From the IMG/VR virus record IMGVR_UViG_3300030103_005513, positions 1-30,443 of that record: DNA of 30,443 nucleotides, one strand, 5' to 3'. This document shows positions 1 through 6,205 of this stretch, in pieces. Position 1 is the first letter of the stretch, and each line of letters starts with the position of its first letter. The position numbers were made by a program, and so were the translations under genes. Source of the DNA: a virus. Below the pieces are notes generated by a model, which saw nothing but the letters and a program-made list of their open reading frames with translations, had not been told where the DNA came from and did not search any database.

Positions 1-417
1 GAATACAAACCGTTTGTTGAGTATTTTAAGACATGCAATAATGTGGTGGCATATAAATCAGACCTTATAGATGTACATATATCAAGATTACAACTTATGG
101 GCAAGGATTTGCAAAAAGTAAAAAGAGAAGATATTTACTTTTATCTTGACCACTATATTGTATGTAATAGGATGGTGGAGTCTAAATTACGAGATAATAA
201 TATACCTTATGAATATTTTGACCTTGATACAGAAGATTATGATAAATGGATAGATAATTTATTACCACGCATTGATGGATATGGATGGGGTGCTTATCCA
301 TTTGATAAGACTACTGAACGATACTCAATAGCACGACAAATATCAGAGGACTATATAACTTCAAGAGGGTTGACAGACATCCGCTTAGATGGTAAACTAT
401 TTGATAGAGTTAGATAA
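1..417 (+). CDS. Partial member of unknown five-copy paralogue family (5' end cut by window edge)
   Basis: The reading frame is open from base 1 without a start codon upstream, so this is the C-terminal 138 residues of a longer protein; the GTG at 43 is probably an internal valine, not a start. Function is not recognised. It matches the C-terminal third of four downstream genes: an AYKSDL segment (bases about 49-66) corresponds to the family motif [PA]YK[ED][DN]IRH, and IPYEYFDLDTEDYDKW (about 202-250) followed by LPR corresponds to IPYxxFxLDxxDY...LPR. Unlike the others it carries about 45 extra residues after the LPR motif. The stop at 415-417 is two bases before the ATG of the kdsB-like gene, so the two are cotranscribed and probably translationally coupled. 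Family membership is clear by eye; function is unknown. Confidence 0.75.
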   Translation, partial: EYKPFVEYFKTCNNVVAYKSDLIDVHISRLQLMGKDLQKVKREDIYFYLDHYIVCNRMVESKLRDNNIPYEYFDLDTEDYDKWIDNLLPRIDGYGWGAYPFDKTTERYSIARQISEDYITSRGLTDIRLDGKLFDRVR

Positions 418-419
418 CT

Positions 420-1139
420 ATGTACAAAGAAAAATCTATTACTTGTGTAATACCTTCAAGAATGTCATCATCAAGGTTTCCAAATAAACCTTTGGCAAAA
501 ATACTTGGAAGAGAGTTAGTTCTTAGGGTAGCGGACTGTGCTAAAAAAAGCAAATATTTCGATAGAATTATTGTTGCGACTGAAGATCAAGTCATAAAAG
601 ATTTAGTTGAAAGCGAGGGATATGAAAGTTTGATGACAGGTAAGCACTGTACATGTAATCATAGAGTCTCTGAGGTCGCATCAGATCTTGAATGTGATTA
701 TGTTTTTAATTTACAGGGGGATGAACCTACTGCCAACCCAGATCATTTAGATTACATAATCGAATATGGTATTGATAATGAATATGATATGGTGCAACCA
801 ATTAGAGAAACTTTAGAGGGAGACACAGAAGATCCAGACGTAGTGCAAACGATTGTAAATAATGGTAAAATATTATACCTTATGAGAACACCCGAAGTTG
901 TGACTGAAAATGTATATACACAACTAGGATATTATTTTTATAAACGAGAAGTCATTGATGATTATAAAAATCTTGATATGTCATTTGTAAAATATTGGAG
1001 GGGATTAGACACCATAGCATTTTGTGGTAAATATGATGTCATGCCCTTGCTTCTTCCTAATTGTGGTAAACAAATAGCGATTGATAGACCACAGCATGTG
1101 GAACTTGTAGAGCAAATATTGATGGAACTCGCAGAGTGA
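420..1139 (+). CDS. kdsB: CMP-KDO synthetase-like cytidylyltransferase
   Basis: This 239-aa protein resembles 3-deoxy-manno-octulosonate cytidylyltransferase (KdsB), which couples CTP to KDO to give CMP-KDO for LPS or capsule synthesis in the cytoplasm. The N-terminus has the nucleotide-binding signature IPSRMSSSRFPNKPLAKI (residues about 11-28; family pattern IPARxxSxRxPxKPL). IIVATEDQ follows near residue 50 and the metal/substrate-binding NLQGDEP near residue 98. Length is close to the family norm of about 245-250 aa. The expected T.R...H.SGT.R segment is altered to MTGKHCTCNHRVSEVA, so the activated sugar might not be KDO. It starts two bases after the previous stop and ends overlapping the next gene by four bases (GTGA), so it sits inside the paralogue array. 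Related nucleotidyltransferases for other acidic sugars (for example CMP-sialate synthetase) are the alternative; the NLQGDEP motif favours KdsB. Confidence 0.85.
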   Translation: MYKEKSITCVIPSRMSSSRFPNKPLAKILGRELVLRVADCAKKSKYFDRIIVATEDQVIKDLVESEGYESLMTGKHCTCNHRVSEVASDLECDYVFNLQGDEPTANPDHLDYIIEYGIDNEYDMVQPIRETLEGDTEDPDVVQTIVNNGKILYLMRTPEVVTENVYTQLGYYFYKREVIDDYKNLDMSFVKYWRGLDTIAFCGKYDVMPLLLPNCGKQIAIDRPQHVELVEQILMELAE

Positions 1140-1951
1140 AATATAGTTACTTCAATACGAATCGTAGCGGTCTAAGTCATATAAGAAATTTAGGAATGTA
1201 TAACAATAAAACTGTGACACACATCTTCAAGTGTCACTATGCAGAGGGCAACCCTTTGTGTGCTGTTATATTCAAACCACAAGAATCGATACAAACATGG
1301 TACTGGGAAGATAAAGAAGAGTCTATACCATGTGACTATGATATTGATTATGTGAAGTTGATGGATGACTTGAGGAGACGACCTCGACCAAAGCATTGGA
1401 TAAATGGAAATAGAGGTAGATACTATGCTCCTATCAAAAAAGGTATAACATCCCCTATCTTTTACAAATCATTTCCGAAAATATTTGAATCAGATTATAT
1501 ACTGTATGCTCTACCTATGTTGGGATACATTGGTAAAGGTAAAGATATTGATGAGAGATTAAGAAATGATAATAAGAATGTTGTGGTTGATCTAAAGTAT
1601 TCTATTGAACAGTTTAGAAAGAGAATCAATATCATACCATACAAGGAAGATATAAGACACATGGCAAGAGAGTGGTTTATCAATAACTATAGTTACAAAG
1701 AAGATTGGTATGAAAATATATCTGAGAGAATAAATTATGGTAGGCAGTTTCATAAAAGAGTAGAAGATTTATTCAGAAAATTAGATATACCATACAGATT
1801 ATTCTCTCTTGATACTGGAGACTATAAATCTATAGGATTAGAGAAAGATCTACCTAGAAATCATACAGAAGGAATTGACCCTACAATACCAGAATCAGTG
1901 ATGGAAAGGTTAGAACCAATAGTTGATAGGTATATGAATGAGAACCCATGA
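1136..1951 (+). CDS. Unknown family protein, paralogue copy 2
   Basis: A 271-aa protein of unrecognised function, the first full-length member of the array. The GTG start at 1136 overlaps the previous stop (GTGA) and gives an N-terminus (MKYSYFNTNRSG) that lines up with the other copies. Shared landmarks are an N-terminal YFN...SG...YNNK segment (residues about 4-25), WYWED (about 55), a central LPMLGYIGKG (about 127), PYKEDIRHMAREWF (about 166-179), and IPYRLFSLDTGDY followed by DLPR (about 219-242). No signal peptide or membrane segment is visible. Aromatic and charged residues dominate, consistent with a soluble enzyme or binding protein. The ATGA overlap with the next copy indicates translational coupling. 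Its place in a nucleotide-sugar operon suggests work on a glycan, but that is inference. Confidence 0.8.
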   Translation: MKYSYFNTNRSGLSHIRNLGMYNNKTVTHIFKCHYAEGNPLCAVIFKPQESIQTWYWEDKEESIPCDYDIDYVKLMDDLRRRPRPKHWINGNRGRYYAPIKKGITSPIFYKSFPKIFESDYILYALPMLGYIGKGKDIDERLRNDNKNVVVDLKYSIEQFRKRINIIPYKEDIRHMAREWFINNYSYKEDWYENISERINYGRQFHKRVEDLFRKLDIPYRLFSLDTGDYKSIGLEKDLPRNHTEGIDPTIPESVMERLEPIVDRYMNENP

Positions 1952-2766
1952 AGTTCTCTTTTTTCAGTGGTGGTAAATCAGGTAAATTTCTCCTGATGAA
2001 TCAGTTTTTATATAATAATAAAACTCATTGTTATATCAATGGGAGTGGTGGAGTATCGTATGCAATACTGGTCACGCCTGATGGTCATTATGATTGGTAC
2101 TGGGAAGATTTAGAAGGTAAATTACAAACATTTCATTTCAAAGTAGATGATAATATTATTATGAATCGTGATTTATGGGAGACATGGTTTCCTATAGGAG
2201 ATAGAGGTTACAGACAAAATACATTGAAAGCATACATCAATCGTCAAGGTCTAACTGATTGTAATAAAGATTTCTATAAGTGCTATCCACATGTGTTTAG
2301 ACAGGATATAGTTGTGAATCCATTACCTCTTCTAGGATACATAGGTAATCAAGGTTCAAAAAAATTAAATAAGAGAATTTCATCAAAAGAATCAGTTGCT
2401 AGTAAAGACAACCTTGAGTATGTGATTGAAGAACTAAAGAAGAGAACCAACTTTGTGGCATATAAGGAAGATGTGAGGCACATGGCATATAATTACTTTG
2501 GAGACCCTAAAGCAAGAACAATTCCTTATGATAAGATGAAGATGATAATTGACAATAACAGAGCAATAGTAAAAAATATTTCTCACCTGCTGGACTTCTA
2601 TGGCATTCCATTTGAATACTTCAATTTGGATACTGATAGGTATGATAAGTCATTTATGTTATCAAAACAAATACCAACTGAAGATGGAGACAGATTTTTT
2701 ATAGATGATGTTATAGATGAGCAGCGTGTGAATGAAAATGTAGAAAGGTACATGCATGAAATATAA
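1948..2766 (+). CDS. Unknown family protein, paralogue copy 3
   Basis: A 272-aa protein from the same unrecognised family. The ATG at 1948 overlaps the preceding stop (ATGA). Family landmarks are FFSGGKSGKFLLMNQFLYNN at the N-terminus, WYWEDLEGK (residues about 51-59), NPLPLLGYIGNQG (about 126), AYKEDVRHMAYNYF (about 171-184) and IPFEYFNLDTDRYD (about 220-233). The GGKSGK string superficially resembles a Walker A loop but lacks the GxxxxGK[ST] spacing, and the other copies do not keep it. The 3' end overlaps the next copy by 11 bases. Function unknown; the ordered conservation of several separate blocks argues for a real fold shared by all copies. Confidence 0.8.
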   Translation: MKFSFFSGGKSGKFLLMNQFLYNNKTHCYINGSGGVSYAILVTPDGHYDWYWEDLEGKLQTFHFKVDDNIIMNRDLWETWFPIGDRGYRQNTLKAYINRQGLTDCNKDFYKCYPHVFRQDIVVNPLPLLGYIGNQGSKKLNKRISSKESVASKDNLEYVIEELKKRTNFVAYKEDVRHMAYNYFGDPKARTIPYDKMKMIIDNNRAIVKNISHLLDFYGIPFEYFNLDTDRYDKSFMLSKQIPTEDGDRFFIDDVIDEQRVNENVERYMHEI

Positions 2767-3568
2767 TTATTTCTGTCATCAAAAAGGTGGTAAGTATCTT
2801 ATAAGAAGTCAGTTTTGGTACAATAACTTAGATACAGTATATCTCTCTCAATCATTCCCACTGTTTGCCAGCACAGGTAAAAATATCTCTGATGGTTATT
2901 ATAAGTTATCATGGTACTACTGCGATAAAGATAATAAACTACAAAGCAGGTGCTGCGAGCAGCAGGTAAAACTAGCGAACGCCAAATATGATGAAATGTG
3001 GTTTCCAGAAGGAGATAGTATATTATCGTGGAGACATGACAACATGACACCATATCATGAAAATTTCAGTCAGTGTTTTGAAACGCTGCTGGATCATGAT
3101 TTGATTGTCAATCCACTAAACATGATGGGATACTGTGGTTTACTTGGGTCAGAAAAAATGCAGATCCAACTCGCTGCAGGTGAACCTCTGTTTCATGTTC
3201 CAGAATCAATTATTGTAGAACTTCGTAAAAGAACTAGCATAATAGCATATAAAGATAACATAAGACATCTAGCGTACAATTTCTTTGCTGGAAACGGATC
3301 TCCGATCCACTTACCTGAAGCACAGTTCGTTGAACGGGTGACATACATAATAAATCAATCAAGAAAATTTATTGCTATGTTACCACAAGTGCTTGAGAAG
3401 TACGATATACCCTATGAGATGTTTAGTTTAGATTCAGGGGACTACCAGCAACGTTTCAATTTACCGAAAGCACTTCCACGTTCGACCAGTGATACTATAT
3501 TCACAAAACCCACAGATAAAACAAATAAGTATGTTGATGATTACATGAGGGAATATGAAAAGATATAA
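2756..3568 (+). CDS. Unknown family protein, paralogue copy 4
   Basis: A 270-aa member of the array. The ATG at 2756 gives MKYNYFCHQKGGKYLI, which aligns with the other N-termini. The more upstream ATG at 2752 is in a different frame. Landmarks are SWYYCDKDNK (residues about 53-62, in place of WYWED), NPLNMMGYCGLLG (about 120), AYKDNIRHLAYNFF (about 164-177) and IPYEMFSLDSGDY (about 218-230) followed by ALPR. It overlaps the previous gene by 11 bases and the next by 14, the tightest packing in the array. Codon and base use look like its neighbours. Function unknown. Confidence 0.8.
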   Translation: MKYNYFCHQKGGKYLIRSQFWYNNLDTVYLSQSFPLFASTGKNISDGYYKLSWYYCDKDNKLQSRCCEQQVKLANAKYDEMWFPEGDSILSWRHDNMTPYHENFSQCFETLLDHDLIVNPLNMMGYCGLLGSEKMQIQLAAGEPLFHVPESIIVELRKRTSIIAYKDNIRHLAYNFFAGNGSPIHLPEAQFVERVTYIINQSRKFIAMLPQVLEKYDIPYEMFSLDSGDYQQRFNLPKALPRSTSDTIFTKPTDKTNKYVDDYMREYEKI

Positions 3569-4451
3569 TTACTGGAACTATGTAAAGACAGGTGGTTGGC
3601 AGATCTCACATAATTTTCTGCATAACAAAAAGATTGTCTGTGTCAATCATCACTCTAAACCAGCGTTCAGTATTTTATACACACCACATGGTATTGGAAG
3701 ATATAATAAGACATGGTATTACCAGAGAAATGGTAAGTTAGAAAAAATAAGCAAGAGCAAAGACTACAGCACCTATGAAAAAGTGATGGAAGATTGTTTT
3801 CCAGCACATAGAAAATGGGAATGGTTCTTTGAATCTCCTTTTATATCATCAAGAGGAGATTATAACATGAAGATATGGGGTAAAGATAACATTGATAAAA
3901 TACCTACAACTTACTACGCTGCATATGCTGCCATGTCAGTTGCACAAGTAACATGCAACCCACATGTTATGTTAGGATATTATGGTAGCACTGGTATAGA
4001 TAATGATATAACAAGTGATTTAGAGAACATGACACCCCCACACCCACCTGCTGCCGTGATAAGGGATGAAATAATTTCAGATTACAAGAAAAAAATAAAT
4101 ATAGTACCATACAAAGAAGATATAGTATCTCTTGTTGAGGATTTTATACATGGCGTTCTAGGTTCTGCTTACATGAAACATGGAGAAGATTATTTTATAG
4201 AGTCATGTGTGCATAAATTAAAGAACCATAAAAAGACTTACCATTTGATTACTTCTATGCTAGAATATCAAGGTATAGATTATATTCCATTCAATTTAGA
4301 TCGTGACAATTATTCAGATGTGTTTGATCTTGATACTTGGTTGCCATTGGATAAAATTAAAAAAGACCAAAGCAACAGGTACAAAACTATGCCTGATAAA
4401 AAACTCAAAAAACTTCCCCAATACATTGATAAAGTTTTATGCTTGATATAG
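3555..4451 (+). CDS. Unknown family protein, paralogue copy 5 (most divergent)
   Basis: At 298 aa this is the longest and most diverged full-length copy. It keeps the N-terminal YNYW...GGW...FLHNKK block, TWYYQRNGK (residues about 54-62), NPHVMLGYYGSTG (about 136), PYKEDIVSLVEDF (about 185) and IDYIPFNLDRDNY (about 241). IRHMA has become IVSLV, and the IPYE segment has become IDYIP. The extra length lies mostly before the central NPHVMLGYYG motif, including a YYAAYAAMSVAQ stretch, with a lysine-rich C-terminus. The ATG at 3555 overlaps the preceding gene by 14 bases, and the 3' end overlaps the SIS-domain gene by 13 bases. Function unknown; the divergence suggests it has taken a different role or substrate. 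Confidence 0.78.
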   Translation: MKRYNYWNYVKTGGWQISHNFLHNKKIVCVNHHSKPAFSILYTPHGIGRYNKTWYYQRNGKLEKISKSKDYSTYEKVMEDCFPAHRKWEWFFESPFISSRGDYNMKIWGKDNIDKIPTTYYAAYAAMSVAQVTCNPHVMLGYYGSTGIDNDITSDLENMTPPHPPAAVIRDEIISDYKKKINIVPYKEDIVSLVEDFIHGVLGSAYMKHGEDYFIESCVHKLKNHKKTYHLITSMLEYQGIDYIPFNLDRDNYSDVFDLDTWLPLDKIKKDQSNRYKTMPDKKLKKLPQYIDKVLCLI

Positions 4452-4894
4452 ACCTAAGACACTTCCCATCAAAACTTCATAAAGCAAAAACTGTTGCCTT
4501 GTTGGGTAATGGGGGAAATCTTGCTGTTGCTCAACATATGGCATCAGACATTTTTAGACATACAGGAAAATTTTGTTTTGCCCCTGACTCAGTAAACACA
4601 ACTGCTTTAGCAGATAAAAATGATTGGAAAGTGCCATGGATGGAATATGCACAATTCGCTGATCTCGTTATTGGGATAACATGTAGAAAACATGCAGGTG
4701 TGTCGGATGCCTTAATGGTTGTAAAGGATAAATGTGATACACTTCTTATTTGTCCACAACAACACGAGGTTCTTGATACACTTATTATCCCTGCACGAAG
4801 TTATCACGAATTTGAGTGTAACTCATTATGGACTATCTACATGATGATGGAACATATTGGAGTTGAATTACCTGATTTACCACACATAAAATGA
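4439..4894 (+). CDS. SIS-domain protein, phosphoheptose isomerase-like
   Basis: A 151-aa single SIS (sugar isomerase) domain protein. The motif VALLGNGGNLAVAQHMASDI (residues about 18-37) matches the first phosphosugar loop of GmhA-type sedoheptulose-7-phosphate isomerases (GNGGS.. .Q H). It is shorter than GmhA (about 190 aa). Two things differ from what I recall of the family: the glutamate following the His is replaced (HMASD), and the second phosphate loop, normally STSGNS, reads ITCRKHAGVS (about 80-89). Both could weaken or change catalysis. It overlaps the preceding paralogue by 13 bases and the HAD phosphatase by four (ATGA). A role in a heptose or other phosphosugar step supporting the kdsB-like gene is plausible; a sugar-binding or altered isomerase is the alternative. 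Confidence 0.7.
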   Translation: MLDIDLRHFPSKLHKAKTVALLGNGGNLAVAQHMASDIFRHTGKFCFAPDSVNTTALADKNDWKVPWMEYAQFADLVIGITCRKHAGVSDALMVVKDKCDTLLICPQQHEVLDTLIIPARSYHEFECNSLWTIYMMMEHIGVELPDLPHIK

Positions 4895-5283
4895 AACCAC
4901 TTATTGAAAAATTCAACGACATCACAGATGTTGTCACGAACATCTATTGTATTGATATAGATGGCACATTGACTGAACCACACGAAGGTACACCATGGCA
5001 AGCAGTGCCAATACCCAGTCGTATTGATAAGGTAAACAAATTATATGACGAAGGTGCAACCATATATCTTATGACAGCACGAGGATTCATACGAAGTATT
5101 TGTATACACGAAGATGATATATTAGCAGCACAGAAAGAAGCAGATAATTATTGTAGAGAACGAACTGAAGCACAACTCAAGGAGTGGGGTGTCAAGTATC
5201 ACAAATTATATTTTGGAAAACCTAGAGCAGTAACATATGTGGATGATCGTGCGGTGTCAGATCATGAATTTTTTCAAGATTAG
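4891..5283 (+). CDS. HAD-family phosphatase, BcbF/EcbF capsule type
   Basis: A 130-aa haloacid-dehalogenase-fold phosphatase. The nucleophile motif CIDIDGTLT is near residue 22 (two aspartates of DxDGT), motif II is LMTARG (about 57), a lysine is supplied by YFGKP (about 110), and the acidic motif is YVDDRAVSDHEF (about 116-127). The order, short length and the GKP..YVDDRAV ending resemble capsule-biosynthesis phosphatases of the BcbF/EcbF type, which dephosphorylate sugar phosphates. All catalytic residues appear present, so the enzyme should be active. It starts in a four-base ATGA overlap with the SIS gene. Its last 62 bases overlap the 3' end of the convergent gene on the other strand. 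The probable substrate is a sugar phosphate made in the same operon; the exact sugar is not deducible. Confidence 0.8.
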   Translation: MKPLIEKFNDITDVVTNIYCIDIDGTLTEPHEGTPWQAVPIPSRIDKVNKLYDEGATIYLMTARGFIRSICIHEDDILAAQKEADNYCRERTEAQLKEWGVKYHKLYFGKPRAVTYVDDRAVSDHEFFQD

Positions 5284-6205
5284 ATCTTAACCACTCATAT
5301 GCCCTGTCATATTCTATGTTGGGTGTGAATTTTTGGTGTGGTTCTAGCATACCTATGCTCATCATTTCACGATGCAACTCCTCTGGTCGTTTTAAAACGT
5401 CTAGTCCTAAAATTTCTATGGTCAATTTTTTTCTTATTGATCTTTCTATATTATTCCAATCACGAGTCCATTCAAAAAAGATTTTTTGATTATCAGTCAA
5501 CCAATCATATCCCCACTTCAAGTAATGTATTACTGGACTATTCCATCTTTCCATTTCATCACGAGTTTTAGTACGATATTGCTCTAACTTATCATAAATG
5601 TGTACTTTCTTATCTAAAAACTCAGAGTAATAAACGTCAGTGCCAGGCCATGGGATGAAGATATGCTCATGACTCATAATATTATGGGCAAGTGTCTCTT
5701 GTCTTATAATAGGATCACTCATTTGAACAAAATTATACTCACCAGTCAATTTCAATTTGTTCCATTGCTTCCATATATCACAAGTACGCCATGGCAACAT
5801 AAAAGTTATGGGACGAGGAGCCGAATCTATCAGTTTTTGCACTGACTCATATTCTTCCTCCCTTATGGTACATTGATCATCTCTTGGTAAAAAGAATAGA
5901 GATCCTTTTGGATCAAATTCATTCAGTGTGGCGACTCTACCTAACTCCCACATAAATGGTGCTGTGCCATAGTATGCTCTAGTAGTCTTGAATTTCGATG
6001 AATTTATCTTATCAGCATGATGTTTTGACCATGCATACACATACTGACTATTGAAACAATCACGTTTGGTATACATGTGATCATATCTACCTATTGCTTC
6101 ACGACATAATCCTGGTAAAATACCAAATAAAAAAGAGGTATTGAGTGGTAAACCCAAATACCTCGCCATTGTATGATGCCACTTATCTGATTTATCAGCG
6201 TACAT
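5222..6205 (-). CDS. Putative surface-polysaccharide glycosyltransferase (GT-B-like)
   Basis: A 327-aa soluble protein, not firmly recognised. The middle has GSLFFLPRDD (residues about 100-109), then an EEEYESVQKLI helix and PITFMLPW. Further on is a HNIMSHEHIFIPWPGTDVYY stretch (about 174-193) followed by SEFLDKKVHIYD. This order resembles GT-B-like proteins of bacterial surface-polysaccharide clusters, where a GxxxxY[AS]xxxxKK segment binds the activated sugar. It is convergent to the sugar operon, and its last 62 bases overlap the phosphatase gene. It may use the nucleotide sugar made by the kdsB-like enzyme. The ATG at 6205 lies 20 bases after the stop of the preceding minus-strand gene, without a clear Shine-Dalgarno sequence. 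Alternative: an unrelated phage protein; the glycosyltransferase call is inference. Confidence 0.5.
   Translation of the reverse strand: MYADKSDKWHHTMARYLGLPLNTSFLFGILPGLCREAIGRYDHMYTKRDCFNSQYVYAWSKHHADKINSSKFKTTRAYYGTAPFMWELGRVATLNEFDPKGSLFFLPRDDQCTIREEEYESVQKLIDSAPRPITFMLPWRTCDIWKQWNKLKLTGEYNFVQMSDPIIRQETLAHNIMSHEHIFIPWPGTDVYYSEFLDKKVHIYDKLEQYRTKTRDEMERWNSPVIHYLKWGYDWLTDNQKIFFEWTRDWNNIERSIRKKLTIEILGLDVLKRPEELHREMMSIGMLEPHQKFTPNIEYDRAYEWLRSNLEKIHDLTPHDHPHMLLL

Follow-up and report, generated by a model that had tools for sequence, protein, structure and literature searches.

The window, the whole stretch analyzed here, is made up of the first 30,443 bases of a virus record of 73,301 bp (IMG/VR IMGVR_UViG_3300030103_005513) and opens, on the forward strand, with a compact gene run built around one protein family. 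This run begins with copy 1 of the family (1..417), which lacks its N-terminus since the contig start falls inside the gene, and continues with a KdsB-like CMP-sugar (cytidylyl) transferase (420..1139), copies 2 to 5 (1136..1951, 1948..2766, 2756..3568, and 3555..4451), a SIS-domain protein resembling sugar-phosphate isomerases (4439..4894), and a HAD-type phosphatase-like protein (4891..5283). The coordinates first proposed for the five family genes were checked and are correct. Copy 1 and the KdsB-like gene are separated by 2 nt, and the remaining junctions overlap by 4, 4, 11, 14, 13, and 4 nt, so that six of the seven junctions from copy 1 to the HAD gene show overlaps of 4-14 nt, consistent with translational coupling. 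A conserved protein of 325-334 aa without database match adjoins the array; in the window its gene (5222-6205) runs opposite to the array, and in another contig (L008:10182-11156) it runs in the direction of the array.

Among the non-family genes of this run, the KdsB-like protein clearly belongs to the CTP_transf_3 family (PF02348, 6e-28) and matches PDB 1gq9 (E = 1e-19); its best score against the NCBIfam kdsB (CMP-Kdo synthetase) models is 146 bits, below the equivalog/subfamily cut-off of 255. The SIS assignment reflects a weak match to PF01380 (E = 0.036, below cut-off). The HAD gene matches PHROG 1238 (1e-23), an entry bearing the name phosphoheptose isomerase, as well as the capsule phosphatase model EcbF-BcbF (1.6e-5, below cut-off) and a capsule protein structure, PDB 9iqw (5e-6). 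SIS and HAD are two overlapping genes in the window, whereas in three other contigs they appear fused into one protein of 288-293 aa (L011:8804-9682, L018:9637-10500, and L021:10066-10929); the L018 fusion weakly matches GmhA (E = 0.04).

The virus record as a whole has a cyanophage character. The baseplate hub gene has its matches in T4-like cyanophages, and outside the window the record encodes transaldolase, psbA (PF00124; 94% identical to Prochlorococcus psbA), and further glycan genes, namely GT10 and GT11 family glycosyltransferases, a sugar epimerase, and a DegT aminotransferase. These psbA and GT10, GT11, epimerase, and aminotransferase genes, the latter forming a large glycan cluster, lie at record bases 50200-70100. 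Since the psbA gene resembles that of Prochlorococcus, this genus is the most likely host of this marine virus, as judged from a gene that phages exchange. Phage-carried surface-sugar genes likewise make up the LPS clusters of the large T4-like cyanophages P-SSM2, S-SSM7, and S-SM2; the passages found in PMC3037559 treat these clusters in general terms, whereas the window array adjoins tail genes.

The five copies belong to a single family of ~270-300 aa proteins. Pairwise BLASTP among the four full-length copies yielded 23-32% identity with E-values from 1e-10 to 3e-42, and the truncated copy 1 matched copies 2, 3, and 4 at about 1e-4 to 1e-6. Copy 1 had no significant match to copy 5 by BLASTP alone, but a profile of copies 2-5 recovered it at E = 3e-8, far beyond chance. 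The original prediction of a five-copy family in a sugar operon is thus borne out. The layout is one copy, the KdsB-like gene, and four further copies, with copy 1 placed by the tree in a distinct subfamily (c1). The ordered motifs it listed as shared by all copies, including an N-terminal YNNK and a central NP[LH]xMLGYxG, are recognizable in outline and looser than proposed, with several copies deviating. Copy 2 reads ALPMLGYIG instead of NP at the central motif, copy 5 carries the variants HNKK, IDYIPFNLDRDNY, and KEDIVS, and copy 1 retains the C-terminal motifs only (AYKSDLID and IPYEYFDLDTEDY).

Contig scans combined with iterated HMM searches expanded the family to 63 distinct full-length members (at least 150 aa) in about 35 IMG/VR contigs. 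No match above chance was obtained between the scanned members and Pfam, NCBIfam, or PHROGs, and profile searches of PDB sequences with three family alignments returned chance matches only. Likewise, no member was found in GenBank phages by tblastn with five diverse members, in viral contigs searched with a single family protein, or in bacterial genomes scanned with a family pattern. Across 300 picocyanobacterial genomes, the family profile yielded one 42-residue match (E 0.007), rejected as sub-threshold, and no credible member. Searches of the open-licence literature on phage sulfotransferases turned up no account of the family, which is previously undescribed; as first stated, it has no name, and the three profile libraries linked it to no well-described family.

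Gene order and phylogeny indicate that the copies have long been distinct. The order copy 1, KdsB-like gene, further copies, SIS, and (HAD) is kept in at least four other phages (L008, L009, L010, and L013) and partly kept in L007, L011, L012, L014, and L016, of which L007 and L016, with a nearly identical copy, possibly come from one phage; L018, L020, and L021 hold copy 1, the KdsB-like gene, and SIS/HAD only. Copies 1, 2, 4, and 5 each cluster with position-matched copies from other contigs (clades c1, c2, c4, and c5; 99-100% ultrafast bootstrap), copy 1 grouping with the L008, L009, L010, and L013 copies that also sit upstream of a KdsB-like gene, while clade c3, containing copy 3, is less firmly supported (94/89). 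Between orthologs, dN/dS ranges from 0.05 to 0.38 for pairs with unsaturated dS. Because of these position-matched clades and dN/dS values, the five copies are an old, specialized paralog set under purifying selection rather than recent repeats or filler, and a recent-duplication reading is ruled out. This agrees with the earlier view that the copies are retained for use and specialized, and does not support its alternative of a recent copy-number expansion serving antigenic variety: the only more recent expansion concerns the copy-4 type, present as three genes in L009. L010 has its copy-5 type between the SIS and HAD genes.

To characterize the fold, copy 4 was modeled with AlphaFold from 38 aligned family sequences (pLDDT 91.1, pTM 0.90). 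The model presents the element order beta1-loop-alpha1-beta2-(three-strand insert)-alphas-beta3-alphas-beta4-alpha-long alpha-beta5, with a P-loop-like core. Its top PDB fold match is the trehalose 2-sulfotransferase Stf0 (PF09037, 1tex_D; E 0.016, probability 0.85), at a TM-score of 0.39/0.42, i.e., a weak likeness where same-fold level is usually 0.5. Other matches are weak and mostly noise, and include a dNMP-kinase-like protein, adenylate kinases, and a Schistosoma sulfotransferase; a BFVD fold search returned no meaningful match. A model of a c1-type relative from L018 (pLDDT 81) arranges its helices and strands in the order seen in copy 4, so that, as far as two models from overlapping alignments can tell, the copies do not adopt unrelated folds. 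Foldseek with this c1-type model retrieved no sulfotransferase and no other meaningful match. The suggestion that a transferase fold might emerge, with sulfotransferases among the options named, finds support in the best match of copy 4.

Motif comparison with Stf0 relatives from cyanobacterial genomes revealed both likenesses and differences. In the family, the loop after strand 1 has six residues ending in Gly (60 of 62 members) and is followed by Lys (51/62), with [KR][SAGT]G at the loop end in the array copies; this resembles the start of the 5'-phosphosulfate-binding loop of Stf0, [KR][ST]G[ST]T, but the residue that follows is mostly K and not S/T. After strand 4, a Lys accompanied by [ED][DN] is invariant (63/63), and the residue at +9 from it is Ser in 33 and N in 19 of the 63 members. 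In Stf0 relatives, the corresponding 3'-phosphate-site residue is Arg with Ser at +9, so the family has Lys with the same spacing to Ser when Ser is present (for instance, RRNLIDQAVS in a Stf0 relative and KENLIDCFAS in the family); copies 2-5 of the window have E, N, N, and D instead of Ser. The C-terminal strand following the long helix also resembles Stf0, and pairs with its YED strand in one profile alignment, whereas the three-strand insert with WYW[ED] (residues 37-70 in copy 4) sets the family apart.

Sequence profiles gave no significant match to Stf0. With the largest family profile, Stf0 was the best among the alignments tried, and its 57 columns paired the two motif regions and the long helix, at a non-significant P = 0.024; with a smaller family profile, the unrelated kdsB family outscored Stf0. 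A column-shuffle null was set aside, as 2 of 60 shuffles gave aberrant scores above 120. Pfam and NCBIfam sulfotransferase profiles matched none of the scanned members, and profile comparison with canonical sulfotransferases stayed at chance level (P 0.22-0.66). Because the sequence-profile test failed and the fold test is suggestive only, we file the family under the working label sulfotransferase-like, and not as a member of Stf0.

Canonical sulfotransferases, recognized by the motifs GWSATSP and RDPVRRxYS and by profile (3rnl, E 1e-8), have no detectable sequence relation to the family (hhalign probability 0.2-0.3%), yet occupy the same genomic neighborhoods, likewise in arrays. Across loci L184-L205, 18 of 26 family genes directly adjoin a canonical sulfotransferase gene, compared with a mean of 5.1 and a maximum of 12 for shuffled positions (2000 shuffles), although these loci may be closely related phages and the counts are then not independent. 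One family branch sits at the end of canonical sulfotransferase gene arrays, and the position that copy 1 takes in the window, directly upstream of the KdsB-like gene, is filled in phage AG-345-D19 by a canonical sulfotransferase gene. Such a shared neighborhood may reflect a shared pathway and not shared chemistry. The canonical arrays occur in related marine phages (G007:24627-33302, L015:2177-7448, L030:1959-8132, and L184-L205), with up to about 8-10 genes per contig; none of the four array members scanned exceeded a Pfam cut-off, and one G007 copy (31488-32321) has an in-frame TAA. In L015, a family gene has a carbamoyltransferase gene (PF02543; 2-949) as its immediate neighbor, and the sulfotransferase array includes a 2OG-Fe(II) oxygenase-like gene (4911-5504).

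Taken together, we favor, with a probability of roughly 0.55, the reading that the family comprises divergent sulfotransferase-like transferases, with a P-loop core nearest Stf0, that would decorate a phage-made glycan. Under this model, the KdsB-like, SIS, and HAD enzymes, the phage glycan cluster, and host enzymes would together provide a sugar or glycan in activated form. Two elements of the array proteins, the N-terminal loop that follows strand 1 ([KR][ST]G[K]) and the YK-[ED]-[DN]...S element that follows strand 4, would hold a nucleotide donor, most likely PAPS from the host, and the proteins would transfer a group from it, most likely a sulfate, to differing positions or substrates. 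The product would form a coat on the infected picocyanobacterium or the virion, or modify its surface. A point against the model is that no APS kinase gene was found in the phage records, which would leave the host to supply the donor. A more specific version, possible but tentative, is a phage-only sulfotransferase-like class, unrelated in sequence to those described and kept as a conserved array. Each paralog would then modify its own position on a phage-encoded sugar with sulfate or a similar group, so that the infected Prochlorococcus cell or the virion would bear a defined sulfated glycan.

We consider it unlikely that the copies are instead glycan transferases of another kind (glycosyl-, acyl-, or carbamoyl-), using for example the CMP-sugar of the KdsB-like enzyme and sharing a pathway, but no chemistry, with the sulfotransferases. 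The tight coupling to a CMP-sugar synthetase gene wherever array loci retain this stretch, together with the carbamoyltransferase beside one family branch, fits this idea, but neither the profile libraries nor the best PDB fold matches include a glycosyltransferase or acyltransferase, and L018, L020, and L021 keep kdsB-SIS-HAD with copy 1 only, so this sugar pathway does not depend on the later copies.

Somewhat less probable still are P-loop kinase-type phosphotransferases, which would phosphorylate sugars or nucleotides of the operon with ATP held at an N-terminal G-x4-G-K loop. The frequent Lys after the loop Gly, the full GxxxxGKS of two c1-type members (L009 and L010, the only ones), and the kinase-type P-loop proteins among the weak fold matches would agree with such an activity; against it, nearly all members lack the Mg-holding Walker A Ser/Thr, and no Walker B Asp is conserved at the end of strand 3 in family alignments A2 and A6, so that the family does not show the Walker A GxxxxGK[ST] plus Walker B Asp signature of P-loop NTPases and kinases. 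In addition, the best fold match is a sulfotransferase, and the neighboring genes are sulfotransferases and not kinases.

Large sequence change between copies and putative active-site parts that differ between clades could also be read as the mark of non-catalytic glycan-binding or scaffold proteins derived from a transferase fold, an improbable scenario given the invariant Lys, an Asp conserved in all 42 members aligned, and the dN/dS range. Filler DNA without function, an idea raised for cyanophage LPS genes in PMC3037559 and suspected for large cyanophage glycan clusters, is largely refuted by dN/dS and synteny: every copy is an open frame coupled to its neighbors, the gene order is shared between phages, and selection is purifying.

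Many sugar genes of unknown use occur in cyanophages, and whether they are filler has been raised as a question; here an undescribed family is kept as an ordered, selected paralog set. The role of phage sulfotransferases has been stated to be unclear (PMC10580990), and the word "sulfotransferase" does not occur in the PMC3037559 text. The putative link of this family to sulfotransferases would tie the question of how a cell or virion surface might be modified by marine phages to specific enzymes that can be tested. Phages of this set also carry tandem genes whose products start like MKIYFDGCSxTxGxELEN and look SGNH-hydrolase-like by eye (L062:5593-8311, L015:9546-12244, and L030:8090-11570).
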